From an uncultured Bacteroidota bacterium (lineage in GTDB: Bacteria; Bacteroidota; Bacteroidia; Flavobacteriales; Flavobacteriaceae), in assembly GCA_902509805.1 (NCBI GenBank), contig CABWZL010000007.1, positions 1 through 40,019 on the forward strand: DNA of 40,019 nt. Reading direction: 5' to 3'. Below, in pieces: positions 24,958 to 35,065 of the stretch. A program made the translations under genes and the position numbers. How positions within the stretch are numbered: position 1 is the first letter of the stretch; each line of letters opens with the position of its first letter. The notes below the pieces were generated by a model, which was not told the origin of the DNA, made no database searches, and saw only the letters and a program-made list of their open reading frames with translations.

Positions 24958-25029
24958 TATTTAATTTTTGTAAATATATCTGAATTTTTGAAAATTGAAT
25001 GTAACTTAGTGTAAACTAACATATTTATC

Positions 25030-28000
25030 ATGAAGAATTTAAGCATACTTTTTGTTTTTTTAACTATAATTCCTTTCTCTTATTCACAAGATATAGAAGA
25101 TAAACTTGAAGAAGTTAAATATAGAAATCTAGGTCCTTTTAGAGGCGGTCGATCAGTTTCATCCTCTGGAGTTATAAATGATCCTTTAACCTATTATATG
25201 GGAACAGCAGGAGGTGGATTATGGAAAACAACTAATGCTGGTAGTGAGTGGTATAATATTTCAGATGATTATTTCAAAACTTCATCTGTAGGAGCAGTTG
25301 CTGTAGCTGAAAGTGATAGTAGAATAATTTATGTTGGTATGGGTGAGCATTCTCCAAGAGGAGTTACTACATCATATGGTGATGGGGTTTATAAATCAAC
25401 TGATGAAGGCAAGACATGGGAACATATTGGATTAGAAAATACTCAACAGATTTCAAGGATTATAATTCATCCTGACAATCCTGATTTGGTATATGTAGCT
25501 GCTCAAGGAGCAATTAATGGACCCACTAAAGAAAGAGGGATATATAAAACTCAAGATGGAGGAAAATCATGGAAAAATGTTCTTTTTGTAAACGAATTAA
25601 GTGGAGCATCAGAACTTTCTATTGATTTTAATAATCCGAAGGTTCTCTATGCAACTCTTTGGGAACATCAGAGGTTTCCTTGGAAAGTTGTCAGTGGCGG
25701 TCAAGGAAGTGGAGTTTATAAGTCAATCGATGCTGGTGAAAATTGGTTTAAAATAGAAAATGGGCTACCAGATGAATTAGGTAAAATGGCAATATCAGTT
25801 TCTAGAGCTAACTCAAATAAGGTATACCTATTAGCAGAAAGTGATTCAAACAAAAGATTAGGAGGGTTATTTGTATCAAATAATGCCGGTGAAAGCTGGT
25901 CAAGAATTAGCAAGTATGCTGAATTGACATCAAGAGCTTGGTATTATATTGAAGTTTTTACAGATCCTAATGATGAAAACACAGTATATGTTCTAAGTGC
26001 TAGAGCTTTTAGATCAATTGATGGAGGAAAAACATGGGAAAGAATATATAGTGGCCATGGTGATTACCATGACTTGTGGATAAATCCGAATAACTCTAAA
26101 AATATGATTATATCTGATGATGGAGGTGGAGAAATTACATTTGATAATGGAGAATCTTGGTCAAGTATCAATAACATGCCAACAGCACAGTTTTATAGAG
26201 TTAATGTGGACAATCTCTTTCCTTATAATTTGTATGGTGGTCAACAAGATAATTCTACGGTCAGAATAGCCAGCATTGGATCTGGAGGAGGTATTTCTGA
26301 AAGTGACTGGTCTTCAACTGCTGGAGGAGAAAGTGCCTTCTTAGCATTTGACCCTAATAACCCAAGATTAGTAATGGGGGGGAGCTACCTTGGAAGTGTA
26401 AATATATACGATACAAAAGCAAAGGCTAGAAAAAAGGTAATGATAGAGCCAATAAATTATATTGGTAAAGCATCAAGAGATATGAAATATAGGTTTAACT
26501 GGAATGCACCAATAATATGGTCTAAACACGAACCAAATACATTTTATCATGCTGCACAACATCTATTTAAAACAAATGACCTTGGTAAGTCGTGGGAAGT
26601 TATATCACCAGATTTAACAATGGATGAAGATGAAAAGCAGGGAAATGGTGGAGGTCCATTAACTAATGAGGCAGTAGGTGCAGAAAACTATGGAACAATA
26701 AGTTATGTAATAGAATCTCCTCATGAGCCTAATACTATCTATACTGGTTCTGATGATGGATTAGTATATATAACTCAAGACGGAGGTAAATCATGGAAGA
26801 ACATAACACCAAAAGGTCTTCCAGAAACAATAATTAATGCAATTGATATATCTCCTCATGATAAGGAAACAGTATATATTGCAACTACTAGATATAAATT
26901 TAATGATAAATCACCTGGTCTCTATAAGTCTACAAATTATGGAGAATCTTGGAAAGAGATAACAGGAAATATTCCATATGGAGCATATACTAGAGTAGTA
27001 AGAGAAGATGAGAAAAGAAAAGGACTATTAGTTGCGGGTACAGAATTAGGAGTATATATTTCATTTAATGATGGTGAAAACTGGGAAAGATTTAATCTTA
27101 ATATGCCTGTTTTAGCTATAACAGATTTAATGATTAAACATGATGATTTAATCATTGCAACCCAAGGAAGATCATTCTGGATACTTGATGATATGGGGCT
27201 AGTGAGACAACTAGATGATACAAAAGAAACTAAACTTTATCAACCTGAAAATTCAACAATTGGTAATTGGTACAGTCAGCTTAACTCTAATTATTCAGAT
27301 GGTACATCAACATTCACAGGTGTTAATCCAGCTAATGGTGTTGTTGTTTATTATAATCTAAATGAAGATGATACTGATAAAGAAATAACAATTAAATTTT
27401 TTGACCAAGACAATAATCTTGTTAGAGAAGTTAGTAATCAAATTGATGAAAACTTTATTTCTTACAATGGAGGCCCTTCAAGAGAACCTGTTTTGTCTAA
27501 TAAAATAGGTATTAATAGGTTTGTTTGGAATGCAAGACATAAATCTTTAACTGGAGTGCCTTATGCATATATAGAAGGAAGATTTAGTGGACATAAAGCG
27601 ATACCTGGAAAATATAATATGTCACTAGAAGTTGGAGATAAAAAATTAACTTCAGATTTTGAGATTCTAAAAAATCCAAATTTTAGGGTATCAGATGAAG
27701 ACTATGCTGAATTTCACAAGTATACCAGTCATATGGAAAATAAGTTTAATATAATGGCAGATTATATTAATAATAATAATCAATTGATTGATAAGCTTAA
27801 AACAATCCTTAGTGATATTGAAGATCAGGCAATTAAAAATAATGGTGAGATCTTACTTAATAAAATGGATAGCTGGGATAAAAAGATGATGCAGAGAAAA
27901 TCATTAGCATACGATGATGTAGAAAACTTCCCAAACAAATTTCTAGCTGATTATTTATTTATACTAGATGAAATTAAGGGTGATATTCCAAATGTTAGTG

Positions 28001-28137
28001 AAGGTATTTTAAAATCTTTAGAGTCTCTTGATAAAAAATGGGATTCCTTAAAAGAAGAAATTGATAATATCAATGAAAATGATATACCAAATTTTAACAA
28101 TGAATTGTGGGAATCAGGTATTGGCGCATTGAATTAA
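25030..28137 (+). CDS. Secreted BNR/Asp-box repeat protein, sortilin-like beta-propeller
   Basis: 1035 aa. A signal peptide covers about 1-20 ([20 protein letters not shown]). From about 67 to 690 I count eleven Asp-box-like repeats of the pattern S/T-x-D/N-x-G-x-x-W, for example [44 protein letters not shown] and [11 protein letters not shown]. These fold as beta-propellers of the VPS10/sortilin-like type. The C-terminal part (about 780-1035) has a beta-sandwich-like region and then a helical segment with no repeat. Databases often label such proteins glycosyl hydrolase, but no catalytic residues support that label. No type IX secretion tail is seen. Role unknown; periplasmic or surface binding or processing of polymers is inferred. 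Confidence 0.88.
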
Positions 28138-28240
28138 ATAACAAAACAAAGAGTTGTATTCTGTATTGGAAAATATTTTTTTGATGAATTATTAAATTAT
28201 CAGATTGTGTTTTATACATTTATGTATTAAACCAATTATT

Positions 28241-28735
28241 ATGAAAAACTATATTAAATATTTATCAATTTTTACTTTAATTAGTCTTATCTCTATAAGC
28301 TGTGATACTGTTCAAACAGATAATAAATTGTCTGAAAACTCAAAAACTTATGAAAAGGTTTGGGCTCAATTCTTTGACGAGAGAGATATGGATGTAATTA
28401 ATAGTCAATATTTCACAGAAGATGTAAAAGTTGTTATTCCAGGTGACGATATCATTGGAATTGAAGGCACTAAGGATTATTATGGAAATTATTTAACTGG
28501 ATTCTCTGATGCTGAATTTACTTTTGTTGATCTATTTGGTCAGGGAGACAAACTAGTTAAACACTGGAATTTTAAAGGTACACATGATGGAAATTTCTTT
28601 GGTATTCCAGCTACAGGAAAAAAATTAGATCTTTCTGGAACAACCCTAATATTAATGGAAGATGGTAAAATTAAGCAAGAGCAAGACTTCTTTGATAGTT
28701 TAGATATGCTCACACAATTAGGCTTAATGGAATAA
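28241..28735 (+). CDS. SnoaL-like (NTF2-fold) putative lipoprotein
   Basis: 164 aa from MKNYIKYLSIFTLISLISIS; an upstream ATG 12 codons earlier gives a non-signal-like extension and is rejected. Cys21 follows a hydrophobic stretch (ISISC), so this is probably a lipoprotein, although Ser at -3 is unusual for a lipobox. The rest is one NTF2/SnoaL-like fold: KVWAQFFDERDMDVINSQYF at the start, a HWNFKGTHDGNFFGIPATGK segment typical of ester-cyclase-type members, and a C-terminal FFDSLDMLTQLGLM. Substrate is unknown. It lies about 100 bases after the BNR gene, and a hairpin terminator follows. Confidence 0.82.
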   Translation: MKNYIKYLSIFTLISLISISCDTVQTDNKLSENSKTYEKVWAQFFDERDMDVINSQYFTEDVKVVIPGDDIIGIEGTKDYYGNYLTGFSDAEFTFVDLFGQGDKLVKHWNFKGTHDGNFFGIPATGKKLDLSGTTLILMEDGKIKQEQDFFDSLDMLTQLGLME

Positions 28736-28763
28736 TCTAACTAATTATTTTTTACATAAAATT

Positions 28764-28787
28764 AAACCCTCATTAAATTGAGGGTTT
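28764..28787. terminator. Bidirectional intrinsic terminator
   Basis: A perfect 9-bp stem, AAACCCTCA paired with TGAGGGTTT, encloses a six-base loop TTAAAT, followed by TTCT on the plus strand. Read from the minus strand it is followed by TTTAATTTTATG-type T-rich sequence. It sits between the convergent SnoaL-like gene and the DUF4295 gene and probably ends both transcripts. Confidence 0.85.
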
Positions 28788-28832
28788 TCTATTACATCCT
28801 GTATAATGGTAAGTATATTAAAGTTGGGGGAG

Positions 28833-28849
28833 ATCTGAATTATTCAGAT
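28833..28849. repeat. Inverted repeat over the DUF4295 gene stop codon
   Basis: ATCTGAAT and ATTCAGAT form an 8-bp dyad with a single base between. It covers the TAA stop codon of the minus-strand gene at 28840-28842. As the centre is only one base, a hairpin would lose inner pairs. It may assist termination or mRNA stability, but there is no direct support. Confidence 0.4.
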
Positions 28850-29262
28850 TTATCGTCAGCAGCTGGCTCTTCAGCCTTAACTTCTTCTGCAGCTGGCTCT
28901 TCAGCCTTAACTTCTTCTGCAGCTGGCTCTTCAGCCTTAACTTCTTCTGCAGCTGGCTCTTCAGCCTTAACTTCTTCTGCAGCTGGCTCTTCAGCCTTAA
29001 CTTCTTCTGCAGCTGGCTCTTCAGCCTTAACTTCTTCTGCAGCTGGCTCTTCAGCCTTATTTTCTTCTGCAGCTGGTTGAACAGGTTTAGGTGCCTCTTT
29101 TTTAACAATAGGTTTACCAGCAAGCCAATCATTAACAAGATCTTGAGGCAATATTCTTTCTTCAAAAGAATAGCTATTAGAGCCATCTTTTTTTACCATT
29201 CTTATTGCTTTTGCAAGTTTTTTTGAGCCAGTTTGTAAACTAGCAACTGCTTTTTTTGCCAT
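28840..29262 (-). CDS. DUF4295 protein with long acidic tandem-repeat tail
   Basis: 140 aa. Residues 1-50 are a DUF4295 domain, a small Bacteroidota-specific family almost always found after rpmB and rpmG, with the signature MAKKAVASLQTGSKKLAKAI and MVKKDGSNSYSFEERIL. Family members are usually about 50 aa. Here a Pro/Lys linker (51-64) leads into seven decapeptides at 65-134: one AEENKAEEPA and six identical AEEVKAEEPA, then ADDKSE. The domain is basic and the tail strongly acidic and probably disordered. The neighbourhood suggests a ribosome-associated role; I recall a Bacteroidota-specific ribosomal protein named bL38 that may be this family, unverified. The start is one base after the rpmG stop. 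Confidence 0.88.
   Translation of the reverse strand: MAKKAVASLQTGSKKLAKAIRMVKKDGSNSYSFEERILPQDLVNDWLAGKPIVKKEAPKPVQPAAEENKAEEPAAEEVKAEEPAAEEVKAEEPAAEEVKAEEPAAEEVKAEEPAAEEVKAEEPAAEEVKAEEPAADDKSE
28861..29070. repeat. 30-bp tandem repeat array, seven units
   Basis: Seven consecutive 30-base units run through the 3' part of the DUF4295 gene. The first six on the plus strand (28861-29040) are identical base for base; the seventh (29041-29070) differs by two adjacent bases, changing Val to Asn in the protein. A partial eighth unit begins at 29071 (AGCTGGTT). The unit length is a multiple of three, so copy-number change keeps the frame. There are no unique spacers, so it is not a CRISPR array. 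Confidence 0.97.
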
Positions 29263-29263
29263 C

Positions 29264-29446
29264 TTATTTAATTTCTTTGTGAACAGTCATTTTCTTCAGA
29301 ATAGGGTTGAATTTTTTTATTTCAAGTCTGTCTGGAGAATTTTTTTTGTTTTTAGTAGTTATATATCTAGAAGTACCTGGCATACCTGAGTCTTTGTGCT
29401 CAGTACATTCTAATATTACTTGAACTCTATTACCTTTTTTTGCCAT
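29264..29446 (-). CDS. rpmG: 50S ribosomal protein L33 (bL33), zinc-free form
   Basis: 60 aa. It begins [20 protein letters not shown] and contains [20 protein letters not shown], the L33 signature. Zinc-binding L33 has two CxxC pairs; only Cys14 is present here, so it is the metal-free type. L33 sits at the 50S E site. It is 2 bases after rpmB and one base before the DUF4295 gene. Confidence 0.97.
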
Positions 29447-29448
29447 TT

Positions 29449-29685
29449 TTACTTAATTAAACCTTGTTTTCTAGCTTCTTTCAAAACCTCTGAAATACCC
29501 TTTTTGTTTATTGTTTTCAAAGCTGATGCAGAAACTTTAAGAGTAACCCATTTGTTTTCATCTGGAATGAAGAATCTTTTTTTCATAAGATTAACATCGA
29601 ATCTTCTTCTTGTTCTATTTAATGATTTGGAAACGTTGTTCCCAAACATAACTTTCTTTCCAGTAATTTCGCAAGTCTTAGACAT
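29449..29685 (-). CDS. rpmB: 50S ribosomal protein L28 (bL28)
   Basis: 78 aa. The start [20 protein letters not shown] and the [20 protein letters not shown] block (about 23-42) are typical of L28. A second cysteine needed for a zinc site is absent. L28 contacts 23S rRNA near the E site next to L33. It is first in the rpmB-rpmG-DUF4295 unit, and a -7 promoter element lies about 25 bases upstream. Confidence 0.97.
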
Positions 29686-29709
29686 AACGTACTAATTTTT
29701 TGTAACGTG

Positions 29710-29717
29710 CAAAACTA
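29710..29717 (-). promoter_or_regulatory. Putative -7 promoter element for rpmB
   Basis: The minus strand reads TAGTTTTG, matching TAnnTTTG, followed by CACG as at the rpsL promoter. The predicted transcript start is about 22 bases before the rpmB ATG. A direct repeat ACGTTA lies downstream at 29685-29690 and 29703-29708. No -33 TTG is seen. Confidence 0.55.
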
Positions 29718-29746
29718 ATGTATTTAAGTTTAATAAAAAAATAAAT

Positions 29747-30214
29747 TTATTGGTTAATAATTTTATCAACGAAGAGTTTGAATGAATTTTCAGTTACAGT
29801 TTTAATGAAGTCTTCTCTCGAACTAATTACTTCATATTTTTCACAGAATAATTCATTTTCAGACGATATAGCTATAAAACAATCTCCAACTGAAGATTTT
29901 AATCCTTCAGAGGCTGGACCAGCGTTTCCAGTTACAGAAATTGAATAATCAGAATTAAATTTTTCCCTAACTTTTTCTGCCATTTTTATAGCAATCTCTT
30001 TACTTACAGGAGAGAATAAGTCAATTTCATTTTTTTCAATTCCAATAATTTTTTCTTTTGAATATTTGCTGTAAGAAACAATAGAACCCTTAAAAACATT
30101 TGAAGCGCCAGCAATTTTTGTTATTGAAAGAGATAAGTTTCCACCTGAACAACTTTCTGCAAATGAAATTGTTTTATTTTTAACATTGAGATAATCAAAG
30201 ATTTTTTTTATCAT
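29747..30214 (-). CDS. Stand-alone CinA C-terminal domain (nicotinamide-nucleotide amidase-like)
   Basis: 155 aa. The motif FAESCSGGNLSLSITKIAGA (18-37) followed by FKGSIVSYSKYSKEKIIGI is the start of the CinA C-terminal (PncC) domain, whose characterised members deamidate nicotinamide mononucleotide for NAD recycling. The usual T-G-I-A-G-P block appears as TGNAGPASEG. The N-terminal molybdopterin-like domain of full-length CinA is absent and the start is well placed three bases after the FAH gene, so this is a single-domain form and not a truncation. Enzyme activity is inferred from family only. Confidence 0.87.
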   Translation of the reverse strand: MIKKIFDYLNVKNKTISFAESCSGGNLSLSITKIAGASNVFKGSIVSYSKYSKEKIIGIEKNEIDLFSPVSKEIAIKMAEKVREKFNSDYSISVTGNAGPASEGLKSSVGDCFIAISSENELFCEKYEVISSREDFIKTVTENSFKLFVDKIINQ

Positions 30215-30216
30215 AT

Positions 30217-30828
30217 CTATTTTATCTTAAGTGAAAACATTTTAGTTGAATCAATGTAGCCTTCTAATATATCTTCACTTATAACTTTTGAAACACCTGC
30301 AGGTGTCCCAGTAAAAATCAAATCTCCTATTTTAAGTGTAAAATATTGTGAAACATATGAAATTAATTCATCTATTTTCCATAACATATTAGAAGAGTTA
30401 CCAGATTGAACCAATTGATTATTTTTCTTTAAACTAAAATCTATTTTTGATAAGTCTTTAAATTTCTCTACACTAATAAAATCTCCAACTAAACACGAAT
30501 TATCAAAAGCCTTTGATTTTTCCCATGGATGACCTTTTTCTTTTAAAGTATTTTGAATATCTCGAGCAGTAAAATCAATTCCAAGACCAATTTCATTATA
30601 ATATTTATTAGAAAATGATTCATCTATATGCTTTCCAACTTTATTAATCTTAACAACTAATTCAACTTCATGATGTATTTCATTTGAAAAGGCAGGAATA
30701 ATAAAATTGTGATTTTTCGGAATAATAGATGAGTCAGGTTTTAAAAAAACAACAGGATGAGAAGGTCTAATATTAGCTAATTCTTTTATATGATCAGAAT
30801 AATTTCTTCCAATACAGATTATCTTCAT
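30217..30828 (-). CDS. Fumarylacetoacetate hydrolase family protein
   Basis: 203 aa, a short single-domain member of the FAH superfamily. Metal ligands can be recognised as Glu54 and Glu56 in HHEVELVV and Asp85 in GIDFTARD. Other signatures are CIGRNYSDHIKEL near the N-terminus, SHPVVFLKPDSSI, and the C-terminal GDLIFTGTPAGVSKV. Short homologues act as acylpyruvases or oxaloacetate decarboxylases; the substrate here cannot be told. It is tightly packed between the exonuclease and the CinA-like gene. Confidence 0.88.
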   Translation of the reverse strand: MKIICIGRNYSDHIKELANIRPSHPVVFLKPDSSIIPKNHNFIIPAFSNEIHHEVELVVKINKVGKHIDESFSNKYYNEIGLGIDFTARDIQNTLKEKGHPWEKSKAFDNSCLVGDFISVEKFKDLSKIDFSLKKNNQLVQSGNSSNMLWKIDELISYVSQYFTLKIGDLIFTGTPAGVSKVISEDILEGYIDSTKMFSLKIK

Positions 30829-30829
30829 C

Positions 30830-31600
30830 TTATTTAGAGTTTATTATACTTAATTTCAATTTTGTAAATATTTTTTTGGTATACTCTGGAAAATCCCCTT
30901 TCATAATCCAGGAGTAATAACCCAGATCAATTTTAAATACATCAACAACTTTTTGCCCAGTATATTTACCAAATGCAAAAGTTGCATCATTGTCAGAATC
31001 TAATCTTATTTTCCCTGCAAAGTCTAGATTATTATTCCTTTTTGAATATTCATTTAAGAAATCCATATCAGGTTCTAAATCATCATACTTGTCTAATTGA
31101 GCTTTAAACACTTCGTAAGCAGCAATTGTATCATCCAAGGCAGAATGAGCATTTTCAAGATTTTTATCACAATAGTACCTAAGGGCAGCCGAAAGATTTC
31201 TAGGTTCTTTTTTATGATATATTACCTGACTATCAATCATTCTTACATTTGTAAAATCAAATTGAATATTGGCTCTTATTAATTCTTCGACAAGAATAGG
31301 AATATCAAATTTAATTGCATTAAACCCTGATAGATCACAATCTTTAATAAATTGATAAATTTCAGCTGAATAATAAGCAAAATTTGGTTCACTTTTAATC
31401 ATCTCATTTGTTATTCCGTGAACTTGAGTTGCTTGAGTTGAAATTTCCATTTCAGGATTAATTCTCCATACTTTTTGAGACTCTGTTTTATCAATATCAA
31501 CTCTTAAAATAGCTATTTCAACAATCCTATCTTTACCAACCTTTGCTCCAGTAGTCTCAAGGTCAAAAAAACAAATAGGTCTATTAAGATTGATTTTCAT
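30830..31600 (-). CDS. DEDDh 3'-5' exonuclease (DnaQ-like)
   Basis: 256 aa. Exonuclease motifs are ICFFDLETTGAK (Asp13, Glu15), FNAIKFDIPILVEEL (Asp99) and ENAHSALDDTIAAYEV (His152, Asp157), so all catalytic residues of the DEDDh class are present. A second small domain at about 205-250 contains FAFGKYTGQKVVDVF and YYSWIMKGDFPEYTKKI, as in ExoX-type proteins. It is not fused to a polymerase. Likely roles are DNA repair or nucleic-acid trimming. It lies one base after the E2 gene, in the recR operon. Confidence 0.9.
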   Translation of the reverse strand: MKINLNRPICFFDLETTGAKVGKDRIVEIAILRVDIDKTESQKVWRINPEMEISTQATQVHGITNEMIKSEPNFAYYSAEIYQFIKDCDLSGFNAIKFDIPILVEELIRANIQFDFTNVRMIDSQVIYHKKEPRNLSAALRYYCDKNLENAHSALDDTIAAYEVFKAQLDKYDDLEPDMDFLNEYSKRNNNLDFAGKIRLDSDNDATFAFGKYTGQKVVDVFKIDLGYYSWIMKGDFPEYTKKIFTKLKLSIINSK

Positions 31601-31601
31601 T

Positions 31602-32903
31602 TTAAATGATTTGGTTCATATCCCATTCTTCAAGATATTCAGCAACTCTTTTAACAAAGCTTCCACCTATTGAACCATTTATAATTCTATGGTCATATGT
31701 GTGTGACAAAATAAGTTTTTTTCTTATGCCAATAAAGTCTCCTTTATCAGTTTCTATAACAGACGGTGTTTTACGAATAACACCAATAGCAATTATACCA
31801 ACTTGTGGCTGATTAATTATTGGTGTACCCATAATTGACCCAAAATTCCCAACATTAGTTACAGTATATGTTCCATCTGATATTTCATGTGGTTTTAAGG
31901 AATTTGATCTAGCCCTATTTGATAAGTCATTTACTGCTAGAGTAAGTCCTTTAAGGTTAAGATGATCTGCATTTTTAATCACAGGTACGATCAAATTTCC
32001 ATTTTCAATAGCTGTAGCCATTCCAATATTGATAGATCTTTTCATTACAATTTTTTCATCAATTATTGAGCTATTTAAAATAGGATAATCTTTAAGTGAC
32101 TTAATTACTGCATCTATAAAAAGAGGCGTAAAGGTGAGTTTAAGCCCCTCTTTATCTTGAAAAGATTTTTTGTATCGATCCCTCCAGTCCCATAGATTAG
32201 TGACATCAACTTCAACAAATGATTGAACATGAGCTGAGATTTTTTTACTATTAGACATATGATCAAATATGATCTTACCCATTCTATCTAACTCTATTAC
32301 CTGGTCTCCCAGAGAAGGTTTGGATTCAATAACAGGTTTATTAGATGAAGTAGATTGGGATCCTATGTAATTTAAAATATCTTGCTTGGTGACTCTTCCA
32401 TCCTTTCCTGAACCAGAAATTTTATTAAGCTCTTCCTGACTAATATTTTCCTTCTTTGCAATATTTTTAACTAATGGTGAGAAAAATTTATCATTTTTTT
32501 CAATTTCAAAATTATCTTCTGAAGATATTTCATCATTTTTTAATAAATCTATTGAAGGAATACTTGCAATTTCTGAATCTTTCATAGTTTCTTCAACATT
32601 ATCTATGATTAATTCTTTATCCTTCTCTTTAGAAACTATTTTAATCTCATTAGTATCTTCTATAGATGTTTCTATTTCAGCAATGACTTCACCTACTTTG
32701 ACAACATCATTTACTTCAAAGTTTTTTTTGACTAGCTTACCTTTAAATTCAGATGGAACATCAGAATCAACCTTATCAGTTGCAATTTCAACTATTGATT
32801 CATCAATGCTTACAATATCTCCAACCTCTTTTAACCATTTAGTTATAGTAGCTTCAGCAATGCTCTCTCCCATCTTCGGAAGTTTCAAAAGATATTTTCC
32901 CAT
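31602..32903 (-). CDS. 2-oxoacid dehydrogenase E2 (dihydrolipoamide acyltransferase)
   Basis: 433 aa. Domains in order: lipoyl domain (1-80) with Lys44 in IATDKVDSD as the lipoylation site, an acidic linker, the E1/E3-binding domain (about 140-179, SPLVKNIAKKENISQEEL then GSGKDGRVTKQDIL), and the acyltransferase domain (about 200-433). The catalytic motif is HTYDHRIINGS with His405. The usual form is DHRxxDG, so Asn409 stands where Asp is expected. Branched-chain 2-oxoacid specificity is likely from the overall type but not proven; E1 genes are not adjacent. A -7 promoter element lies just upstream. Confidence 0.9.
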   Translation of the reverse strand: MGKYLLKLPKMGESIAEATITKWLKEVGDIVSIDESIVEIATDKVDSDVPSEFKGKLVKKNFEVNDVVKVGEVIAEIETSIEDTNEIKIVSKEKDKELIIDNVEETMKDSEIASIPSIDLLKNDEISSEDNFEIEKNDKFFSPLVKNIAKKENISQEELNKISGSGKDGRVTKQDILNYIGSQSTSSNKPVIESKPSLGDQVIELDRMGKIIFDHMSNSKKISAHVQSFVEVDVTNLWDWRDRYKKSFQDKEGLKLTFTPLFIDAVIKSLKDYPILNSSIIDEKIVMKRSINIGMATAIENGNLIVPVIKNADHLNLKGLTLAVNDLSNRARSNSLKPHEISDGTYTVTNVGNFGSIMGTPIINQPQVGIIAIGVIRKTPSVIETDKGDFIGIRKKLILSHTYDHRIINGSIGGSFVKRVAEYLEEWDMNQII

Positions 32904-32917
32904 TTTTCTAGTACTTG

Positions 32918-32925
32918 CAAATTTA
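32918..32925 (-). promoter_or_regulatory. Putative -7 promoter element for the E2 gene
   Basis: The minus strand reads TAAATTTG in the 36-base gap between recR and the E2 gene, followed by CAAG. The predicted transcript start is about 12 bases before the ATG. A -33 TTG is not visible. It may allow expression independent of recR. Confidence 0.5.
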
Positions 32926-32939
32926 CAATATTAAAATCA

Positions 32940-33560
32940 TTACTTATTAGATAGATCAGTTTCATAAGGACGTCTATTTTGAATACTTCTTGCCAATGTA
33001 ACTTCATCTGTATATTCTAATTGATCACCAACGGGGATGCCTCTAGCTAATACCGAGACTTTTACATTAAGTTTTTTTAAAATTTTAAATAAATAAAAGC
33101 TAGTTGTATCAGCCTCAATTGTTGCACTTAATGCAAAGATTATTTCATCTACTTTTTTTTCAATAATTTTTTTTTCAAGACTTAAAACATTTAAATCCTC
33201 GGGACCAATTCCTTCAATTGGAGAAATCACCCCTCCTAAAACATGGTAAAGTCCGTTATAAAGATTTGTATTTTCAATTGCAATGACATCTCTTATATCC
33301 TCAACAATACAAACAATAGATTGATCTCTTGATAAATTTGAGCATATATCACAAATATCTTTATCTGAAATATTGTGACATTGAGTGCAATGTTTAATTT
33401 GAGTTTTAAAGTCAAAAATACTTTCCGATAGATCTCTGGAGAATTCTTTAGGTTTTCTTAATATTTCTAGTGCAATTCTTAGAGCAGATCTTTTACCAAT
33501 TCCTGATAATTGGGAAATATTATAAACTAAATTTTCAAGAAGTTTAGAAGGAAATTCCAT
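32940..33560 (-). CDS. recR: Recombination protein RecR
   Basis: 206 aa. RecR works with RecF and RecO to load RecA on gapped DNA. The N-terminal helix-hairpin-helix is in QLSGIGKRSALRIALEIL (17-34). The zinc finger uses Cys58, Cys61, Cys70 and Cys73 (HCTQCHNISDKDICDICS). The Toprim domain begins SIVCIVEDIRDVIAIE (81-96), and the Walker-like C-terminal RGIPVGDQLEYTDEVTLARS is complete. The gene heads the minus-strand operon, with a -7 element only 4 bases before the ATG. Confidence 0.97.
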   Translation of the reverse strand: MEFPSKLLENLVYNISQLSGIGKRSALRIALEILRKPKEFSRDLSESIFDFKTQIKHCTQCHNISDKDICDICSNLSRDQSIVCIVEDIRDVIAIENTNLYNGLYHVLGGVISPIEGIGPEDLNVLSLEKKIIEKKVDEIIFALSATIEADTTSFYLFKILKKLNVKVSVLARGIPVGDQLEYTDEVTLARSIQNRRPYETDLSNK

Positions 33561-33564
33561 TATG

Positions 33565-33572
33565 CAAATTTA
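33565..33572 (-). promoter_or_regulatory. Putative -7 promoter element for recR
   Basis: The minus strand reads TAAATTTG followed by CATA and then the recR ATG. If used, the transcript would begin within about 2 bases of the start codon, so the mRNA would be leaderless or nearly so. No -33 TTG at the right distance. The site lies in the 50-base divergent gap to the symporter gene. Confidence 0.5.
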
Positions 33573-33610
33573 GAAATATTCGTTGTAAGTTCTTTTGTAT
33601 ATTTATAAAA

Positions 33611-35065
33611 ATGTTATCTCCTGAAATTATTTTAATTGCTATTGCTTCATATTTTATAGTTTTAACTGCTATATCATATTTGACAGGTAAAGAAGACAAC
33701 AATGAAGTTTTTTTTAATGCTAAAAGAAGTTCTAACTGGGCTGTTGTCGCATTTGGAATGGTTGGTGCATCTTTATCAGGAGTTACATTTATTTCAGTCC
33801 CCGGATGGGTTGGTGAATCTCAATTTACATATTTTCAAGTAGTTATTGGATATTTAATAGGATATCTAATTGTTGCTAATCTATTACTTCCTCTATACTA
33901 CAGGATGGGGTTAACATCCATTTATGAATATCTGTTTACACGATTTGGAAAAAACGCTCATTATGTAGGATCTATTTCTTTTTTAATTTCTAGGATTCTT
34001 GGAGCATCTTTTAGATTGTTTCTTGTAGCTATAGTTCTTCAACAATTTATTTTTGATGACTTAGGAATACCATTCGAAATAACAGTTATTATTTCCATTT
34101 TATTAATCTGGTTATACACAAGAAGAGGTGGAATTAAAACAATAGTTTGGACAGATACAATTCAAACTACGTTAATGATTTTAGCTGTTATATTATCAAT
34201 TTATTATATAAACCAAGATTTAGGCTGGACATTTTCAGAATTCATTTCTTCAAGTGATTTTAAAGAATTTGATAAAATATTTGTAACTGAAAACATTACA
34301 GAAAGAAATTACTTTTTAAAATCAATTATTGGTGGTGCCTTTATAACAATTTGTATGACTGGTCTAGATCAGGACATGATGCAGAAAAACTTAACATGTA
34401 AAAATATTAAAGAAGCTAAAAAGAATATGATAGTTTTTAGTTTTATACTGACTATTGTTACATTTCTTTTTATTGTTTTGGGTGCACTTCTTTTTATATA
34501 TGCAAGTGAAAATAATATAGCTGTTCCGTTGGTTGATAATTCACCTCGAACAGATCTTTTATTTCCACAGATTGCATTAAGATCAGGACTAGGAGAGTTT
34601 TTAGGAATCACTTTCATATTAGGTCTAATTGCCGCAGCATATAGTAGTGCTGATAGTGCATTAACTTCTCTTACAACATCCTTTTGTGTTGATATTCTAA
34701 AGATTGATATTACTAATTCGAAATCAATCAAAACAAGAAAAAATATTCATGTTTTAATGAGTATAACATTAATAATTGTAGTGATAATTTTTAGATATAT
34801 TCAAGACAAAAATGTAATAGATAGTCTTTTAACTGTTGCGCAATATACATATGGACCTTTGCTAGGACTATTTGCTTTTGGAATTTTTACAAAATATAAA
34901 ATTGAGGACACTAAGGTCTACTTAGTTGTAGTCATTAATATTATAATAATAGTTATAATAGGGAATTTACCTTCAGATCTTATTGGAGGTTATCAAATAG
35001 GATATGAACTACTGCCATTTAATGGATTAATTAATTTTATAGGGTTATACTTGATTAGAAAATAA
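33611..35065 (+). CDS. Sodium:solute symporter family protein
   Basis: 484 aa integral membrane protein with about 13 hydrophobic segments, the usual layout of the SSS family. Visible signatures are SNWAVVAFGMVGASLSGVTF (about 35-55), the GWVGESQFTYFQVVIGYLIG stretch, and GLIAAAYSSADSALTSLTTS (about 339-358), which carries the serine-rich sodium site of LeuT-fold transporters. The solute cannot be deduced. It is divergent from recR, the same neighbourhood seen in other Flavobacteriia as I recall. Confidence 0.92.
   Translation: MLSPEIILIAIASYFIVLTAISYLTGKEDNNEVFFNAKRSSNWAVVAFGMVGASLSGVTFISVPGWVGESQFTYFQVVIGYLIGYLIVANLLLPLYYRMGLTSIYEYLFTRFGKNAHYVGSISFLISRILGASFRLFLVAIVLQQFIFDDLGIPFEITVIISILLIWLYTRRGGIKTIVWTDTIQTTLMILAVILSIYYINQDLGWTFSEFISSSDFKEFDKIFVTENITERNYFLKSIIGGAFITICMTGLDQDMMQKNLTCKNIKEAKKNMIVFSFILTIVTFLFIVLGALLFIYASENNIAVPLVDNSPRTDLLFPQIALRSGLGEFLGITFILGLIAAAYSSADSALTSLTTSFCVDILKIDITNSKSIKTRKNIHVLMSITLIIVVIIFRYIQDKNVIDSLLTVAQYTYGPLLGLFAFGIFTKYKIEDTKVYLVVVINIIIIVIIGNLPSDLIGGYQIGYELLPFNGLINFIGLYLIRK

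Follow-up and report, generated by a model that had tools for sequence, protein, structure and literature searches.

The bL38 gene and its tail

The window, by which we mean the whole stretch of 40,019 nucleotides analysed here (contig CABWZL010000007.1, from a Flavobacteriaceae genome), carries on its minus strand a gene for bL38 (DUF4295). The gene runs from 29262 to 28840, ATG to TAA, encodes 140 amino acids, and lies directly downstream of rpmB and rpmG, in that order, whose products bL28 and bL33 were confirmed by Pfam (Table 1). A first-pass annotation had described an intact DUF4295 domain followed by a linker and seven decapeptides, in the position after rpmB-rpmG known from this family. 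Translation, PF14128 and TRF bear out this architecture, on the minus strand, and the Pfam matches of both neighbours bear out the position.

Table 1. Features of the bL38 locus, with positions in the window.
Feature	Position	Strand	Evidence
bL38 (DUF4295) with acidic repeat tail	28840..29262	-	open reading frame; PF14128; bL38 chains in solved ribosomes
bL38 domain, residues 1-50, net charge +5	29113..29262	-	Pfam match to residues 2-47; AlphaFold2 model
linker, residues 51-63 (PIVKKEAPKPVQP)	29074..29112	-	translation
seven decapeptides, residues 64-133, 30-bp DNA units	28864..29073	-	TRF, 28859-29076
non-repeat C-terminal cap AADDKSE, residues 134-140	28843..28863	-	translation; stop codon 28840-28842
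rpmG, bL33, upstream neighbour	29264..29446	-	PF00471
rpmB, bL28, upstream neighbour	29449..29685	-	PF00830

The protein changes its charge along its length, with +5 over the first 50 residues and -21 after residue 50. One decapeptide reads AAEENKAEEP and the other six AAEEVKAEEP. At the DNA level they form a tandem array of 30 bp x 7.3 copies with 98% matches and a TRF score of 422, which far exceeds all other tandem repeats in the window, the next best of 28 TRF rows scoring 48. The near-identity of the units points to a recent expansion or homogenisation. As contigs often end at these tails, the copy number may be wrong in any single assembly. A linker with Lys and Pro residues was found repeatedly among members of the genus to which the window belongs. 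The 30-bp unit also keeps two extra frames open, a Ser/Ala frame on the plus strand (28778-29080) and a basic LQKKLRLKSQ frame on the minus strand (28818-29186). No Rfam RNA element was matched around the gene (window positions 25000-34000).

Identity and place on the ribosome

DUF4295 is the established 50S protein bL38. The PF14128 match has an E-value of 1.3e-14 and scores 54.2 bits, where the cut-off is 27. Two PDB sequences matched at E-values up to 1, 7jil_4 (E 3e-9) and 9i5t_15 (E 8.5e-5). The 7jil chain, from F. johnsoniae, carries the name "50S ribosomal protein L38", and 9i5t and 9i5v are ribosomes of P. gingivalis. An AlphaFold2 model, built from a 31-sequence alignment, predicts two strands and a helix for the domain, with 30 residues at a pLDDT of at least 90, and no secondary structure for the decapeptide region, residues 63-118 having a pLDDT below 50. 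The chains 7jil_4, 9i5t_15 and 9i5v_15 occupied Foldseek ranks 1-3 (probability 0.97-1.00, rmsd 1.3-1.6). The best of them, 7jil_4, had a probability of 1.00, a TM-score of 0.80 over the target and an E-value of 0.038, and because the fold is tiny, no match had an E-value of 0.001 or less. The ribosome residence assumed in the first-pass annotation is thus established for the family by the solved ribosomes 7jil, 9i5t and 9i5v, and by homology the window protein would reside there too.

According to the excerpts of PMC10618245, the bL38 of B. burgdorferi touches helix 95, the helix of the sarcin-ricin loop, as well as helix 97, uL6 and uL14, at a site adjoining H95, uL6, uL14 and bL19. The F. 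johnsoniae protein has a similar place there, displaced by 14 A (PMC10618245).

Distribution of the bL38 tail

To judge from the genomes surveyed, the bL38 tail is a mark of the marine genus MED-G11 (Ca. Marisimplicoccus). The best named match of the window protein belongs to Cryomorphaceae bacterium MED-G11 (97% over residues 1-117), and the nearest surveyed genome shares 29% of sampled words with the window. The excerpts of PMC9122927 assign the GTDB genus MED-G11 to the NS5 marine group and MED-G11_sp2 to NS5_A, that is Ca. Marisimplicoccus, described as free-living, with about 1.17 Mbp and 30% GC.

We matched bL38 in 21 of the 25 genomes surveyed for the genus and read 20 genes, leaving out the one at a contig edge (G010). 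A tail is visible in 18 of these, 16 being complete, with tails of 39-89 residues, and two ending inside the tail. The remaining two are cut by contig ends before the tail, and no readable gene is tail-less. Some of the tails have a charge of just -3 to -6 (G025, G021, G007). L117 (MED-G121) starts within a bL38 tail.

Outside the genus the protein is short, with the norm of about 50 residues given in the first-pass annotation. All 65 named loci with a readable domain encode a bL38 of 49-51 aa, among them the four nearest by bL38, from TMED96, AG-447-D22, AG-916-A19 and AG-915-O22. Among non-genus relatives with a bL38 match, the open frames measure at most 59 aa in 74 of 74 cases, and in a family survey non-genus bL38 has at most 64 aa among the matches listed. 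A phylum sample (80 of 148 matched) gave non-genus open frames of 50-91 aa, which were counted without reading the sequences and include stretches before the start, those above 73 aa being borderline or sub-threshold matches. A tail universal in the family, a possibility that the first-pass annotation had raised, was rejected on the frames seen outside the genus in these surveys.

A set of 5.8 billion proteins was searched for members 77-245 aa long that contain a bL38 domain, with 221 matches among 223 candidates; the statistics below cover the 120 matches listed. All 120 are at least 90% identical over the domain and 79-162 aa long. Their tails contain 29.5% Glu, 23.3% Ala, 13.6% Lys and 11.9% Pro, with a median charge of -11, and their caps include EKSE (35), DKPE (14), DKAD (13), DKAE (10) and DKSE (9). 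At least two listed homologues, P0016 and P0058, pass directly from the linker into unrelated sequence. Five others (P0055, P0066, P0072, P0108, P0119) have a frame break and then the basic alternative frame, a read-through that may be either sequencing error or real phase variation. Both groups indicate that the bL38 tail may be dispensable, or else they are assembly errors.

Tails on other ribosomal proteins

The first-pass annotation treated the acidic tail as exceptional. This holds for bL38, but not as the peculiarity of one protein, since uL10, bL31 and bS16 are tailed too, as read in MED-G11 genomes other than the window's own strain. Of the 25 MED-G11 genomes, 19 gave a uL10 match; the gene is complete in 16, with tails of 32-80 residues (among them the frameshifted tail of G018, MED-G11 FRAM18_bin151), and cut by contig ends in three. 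Its tail is made of the same decapeptide as that of bL38 or a near-identical one, and its units fit the bL38 pattern in 12 of the 14 complete uL10 genes tested. For bL31, found in 24 of 25 genomes, contig ends cut five genes, and the 19 complete ones have tails 30-100 residues long with charges of -9 to -30. In the named non-genus genomes with a match, TMED96 included, both proteins are tail-less, uL10 ending at 171-173 aa (12 of 12) and bL31 at 83-90 aa (11 of 11). The tails of bL38, uL10 and bL31, absent from these named relatives, are therefore best read as gained on the genus stem.

The tail of bS16 has a wider distribution, being acidic in 18 of the 20 non-genus loci read and present in most of the order. 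By this distribution, bS16 tails are older than those of bL38, uL10 and bL31. Two genomes of the order, each of 0.6 Mb, have a bS16 of 112 aa without an acidic tail (L205 in G087, L212 in G096). The acidic tails of bL31 and bS16 are built from units other than the decapeptide of bL38 and uL10, so that different DNA units converge on an acidic Ala/Glu/Pro composition.

As far as the gene sequences tell, acidic ribosomal-protein tails are a recurrent trait beyond MED-G11. Acidic bL31 tails with SEEAPA-type units are found in G066 (L226) and G079 (L225), from another family of the order, one with small genomes, and are apparently an independent gain. Outside the genus, G078 has a 29-residue acidic uL10 tail, the open frames of bL31 are long in G090 and G098, and those of uL10 are longer in G065, G070 and G079. 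Contigs of MED-G11 assemblies end in or at tails in 16 of the 73 gene copies examined (L032, L036, L040, L044, L117, L207, L216, L218, L219 and others). Some arrays are therefore longer than recorded, and short-read databases truncate such tails.

Repeat arrays across a MED-G11 genome

We ran TRF on contig C1 and on 80 of the 122 kb of contig C2 of G018. The 26 rows with a score of at least 80, merged by eye, correspond to 19 arrays in open reading frames and one outside. Seven of the 19 array-bearing genes are ribosomal by Pfam (bS16, bL38, bL31, uL10, bL21, bL25 and bS6), an enrichment with p about 8e-6 if 54 ribosomal genes among about 1206 ORFs are assumed. A piece of a further candidate, bS1, gave no Pfam match when tested and was excluded from the count. 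We take other array-bearing ORFs to be Rho, SecG, the linker of pyruvate dehydrogenase E2 and lipoproteins. Pro/Glu/Lys repeats at positions 813137 and 1034371 of C1 lie in the putative pyruvate dehydrogenase E2 linker and near the putative Rho N-terminus. Given these repeats, expansion in disordered linkers would not be limited to ribosomal proteins.

In G018, the frames of uL10 (L135:9772-10509), bL21 (L159:2483-2962) and bL25 (L140:10571-11281) break inside the arrays and the tail goes on in another frame, whereas those of bS16, bL31 and bL38 are unbroken. Low-complexity tails can also be basic, as in bL21 and bS6.

One possible explanation for the acidic tails is assembly chaperoning in cis, in which the tail would cover the basic domain that binds RNA in bL38, bL31 and bS16 after their synthesis, until rRNA displaces it. 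Such a role would fit a bL38 chain that joins a basic domain of +3 to +5 to an acidic tail of -3 to -21, and the finding that several ribosomal proteins that bind RNA have acidic tails. We consider it quite unlikely, as bL38 does its job tail-less in all 139 non-genus sequences read or measured (74 and 65, two sets that may overlap), and basic tails occur as well, on bL21 and bS6.

Selection, conversion and length

To estimate pN/pS, we used codon alignments in which only nucleotides were scored, over all pairs, and compared them with a null of the same sequences mutated without selection and realigned. The tails gave 0.35 for bL38 (n=16), 0.31 for uL10 (n=15), 0.48 for bL31 (n=19) and 0.32 for bS16 (n=6), as opposed to 1.08-1.15 for the neutral null and 0.06-0.14 for the domains. 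These figures are rough, as the sequences are related and repeats are hard to align, and their direction agrees in all four genes. Earlier values of 0.23, 0.155 and 0.13 were set aside in favour of these milder, pattern-free ones, because units chosen by protein pattern favour conservation. With tails at 0.31-0.48 and a null of about 1.1, drift of a minisatellite is an unlikely explanation by itself. That several ribosomal proteins of MED-G11 have long acidic tails suggests that such arms are maintained on its ribosome by selection.

The shared peptide of bL38 and uL10 could have been spread by conversion between the two arrays, which in G018 are about 21 kb apart on the same strand. This was not supported, the unit distance being 5.5 of 30 bases within genomes and 5.8 between them (permutation p 0.30, 11 genomes). 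As there is no within-genome excess of DNA likeness, recent DNA copying does not explain the shared peptide; the within-genome match of the amino acids is itself weak (p 0.08). Compensation of length between tails was likewise rejected, since the lengths of bL38, uL10 and bL31 are uncorrelated (rho 0.09-0.19, n 10-11). A brush of loose length therefore fits better than a measured ruler.

These results bear on a purely neutral origin, in which a 30-bp minisatellite slips where a solvent-exposed C-terminus tolerates it, and the acidity is an accident of the seed. Several observations agree with slippage, namely the 98% identity of the units, a copy number that varies (79-162 aa in the 120 listed homologues), tail lengths with weak or no correlation between genes, and arrays in non-ribosomal genes of G018. 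Nevertheless, we regard neutrality as unlikely. Besides the pN/pS values, none of the 18 readable genes among the 20 of the genus is tail-less, and the tails of bL38/uL10, bL31 and bS16 resemble one another in acidic composition although their DNA units differ. Moreover, 7 of the 19 array-bearing genes of G018 are ribosomal. These arguments carry caveats, since the sequences are not independent, repeats align only roughly, and the 19 genes come from a merge of 26 TRF rows by eye.

Proposed function

We propose that the bL38 arm, known from genes and a model, is a clade-specific, disordered, polyanionic brush that acts by its composition and is retained by selection, and we put the chances of this reading at about even. 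The brush is preferred to its rivals because the constraint falls on composition and not on length, because no fold is modelled for the tail, and because the tailed proteins are spread over the ribosome. The arm would have been produced by in-frame expansion of the 30-bp unit, with slippage setting the copy number and selection keeping the acidic Ala/Glu/Lys/Pro composition. From homologous structures, the bL38 domain would sit on the 50S subunit beside helix 95, so that the arm could sway over the factor-binding face. It would belong to a set, together with the near-identical decapeptide arm of uL10 and the arms of bL31 and bS16 made of other units. Acidic and broken by Pro, the brush could repel RNA and other ribosomes and thus keep the factor site open, and it may possibly hold basic translation factors locally. 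Counting against the brush are the lack of correlation between tail lengths, the low tail charge of G025, G021 and G007, the listed homologues that run into unrelated sequence or the basic frame, and the distance of bL31 and bS16 from the factor site.

uL10 is located at the base of the bL12 stalk, on the factor-binding side, while bL31 and bS16 lie away from the factor site. The first-pass annotation had offered factor recruitment in the manner of the acidic stalk proteins, protein binding or charge shielding as possible roles. The place of bL38 beside helix 95 and the near-identical uL10 decapeptide make a role at the factor site more plausible than that annotation could tell, and it could be imagined that the arms of uL10 and bL38 together display a short, repeated motif that draws in translational GTPases or some other factor. 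The decapeptides of the two proteins are near-identical with no sign of conversion between the loci, and bL38 adjoins the sarcin-ricin loop helix. However, the unit is of low complexity and may be shared by composition, the within-genome amino-acid match is weak, and the units compared were chosen by pattern, which favours similarity. The acidic tails of bL31 and bS16 sit elsewhere on the ribosome, and mimicry of the stalk therefore does not describe the whole set. We therefore judge recruitment by motif to be highly improbable. A broader scenario, also very unlikely in our view, would have the uL10 and bL38 tails flank the GTPase-associated centre as a second acidic stalk, tunable by copy number, that gathers factors, was gained with the bL31 tail on the genus stem, and adapts the cells to a streamlined, slow-growing life in the ocean.

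For the brush, as for any role, the constraint at the protein level argues that the tails of MED-G11 do something. The genus is a natural experiment, with three tailed ribosomal proteins, varying in copy number, to be set against named relatives in which all three are tail-less. As the neighbourhood of bL38 has been solved beside the sarcin-ricin loop helix, the question of the tail is testable.

Comparison with known systems

The window protein shares with the bL38 of the solved ribosomes (7jil, 9i5t, 9i5v) the same 47-residue domain, the best-matching fold and the position after rpmB-rpmG. The deposited chains have 49-50 aa, whereas here 90 more residues follow, 70 of them tandem decapeptides.

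The archaeal and eukaryotic stalk proteins P0/uL10 and P1/P2 have an Ala/Glu-rich hinge and an acidic end. By analogy, the bL38 tail may be likened to them as a flexible acidic C-terminal extension near the factor-binding site; the conserved end peptide of the P-proteins was not seen by eye in the tails read. The bacterial stalk protein bL12 also has a flexible hinge, and it is a folded C-terminal domain that recruits factors there. As a probable flexible arm at the factor-binding site, the bL38 tail resembles bL12, from which it differs in having no modelled fold.

A further comparison is with the low-complexity regions of bacterial ribosomal proteins, of which the excerpts of Ntountoumi et al. 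2019 (PMC6821194) count 822, mostly C-terminal and Ala/Glu-rich. They name S2, S3, S6, S16, L3, L10, L17, L19, L21, L25 and L31 as recurrent carriers and state that the role of these regions needs investigation (PMC6821194). Like this class, the window tail is C-terminal (residues 64-140 of 140). The paper sets its A/E class at 70% or more Ala plus Glu; AAEEVKAEEP, with 7 of 10, lies right at that value, and the tails of the 120 listed homologues, with 52.8% after residue 52, fall below it. Surface exposure is a trait of the class, and the pLDDT below 50 over residues 63-118 would agree with a disordered tail. No report of a bL38 tail was found in the open-licence literature, and the bL38 tail would thus be an unreported example in a described class of ribosomal-protein tails. 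It differs from what section 9 of PMC6821194 describes, where bL38 is not among the proteins named, in its near-perfect DNA array and its decapeptide bearing Pro and Lys. The MED-G11 set as a whole further stands apart from that class in that its bL38 tail is confined to one genus, where it occurs with uL10 and bL31 tails that are absent in named relatives.
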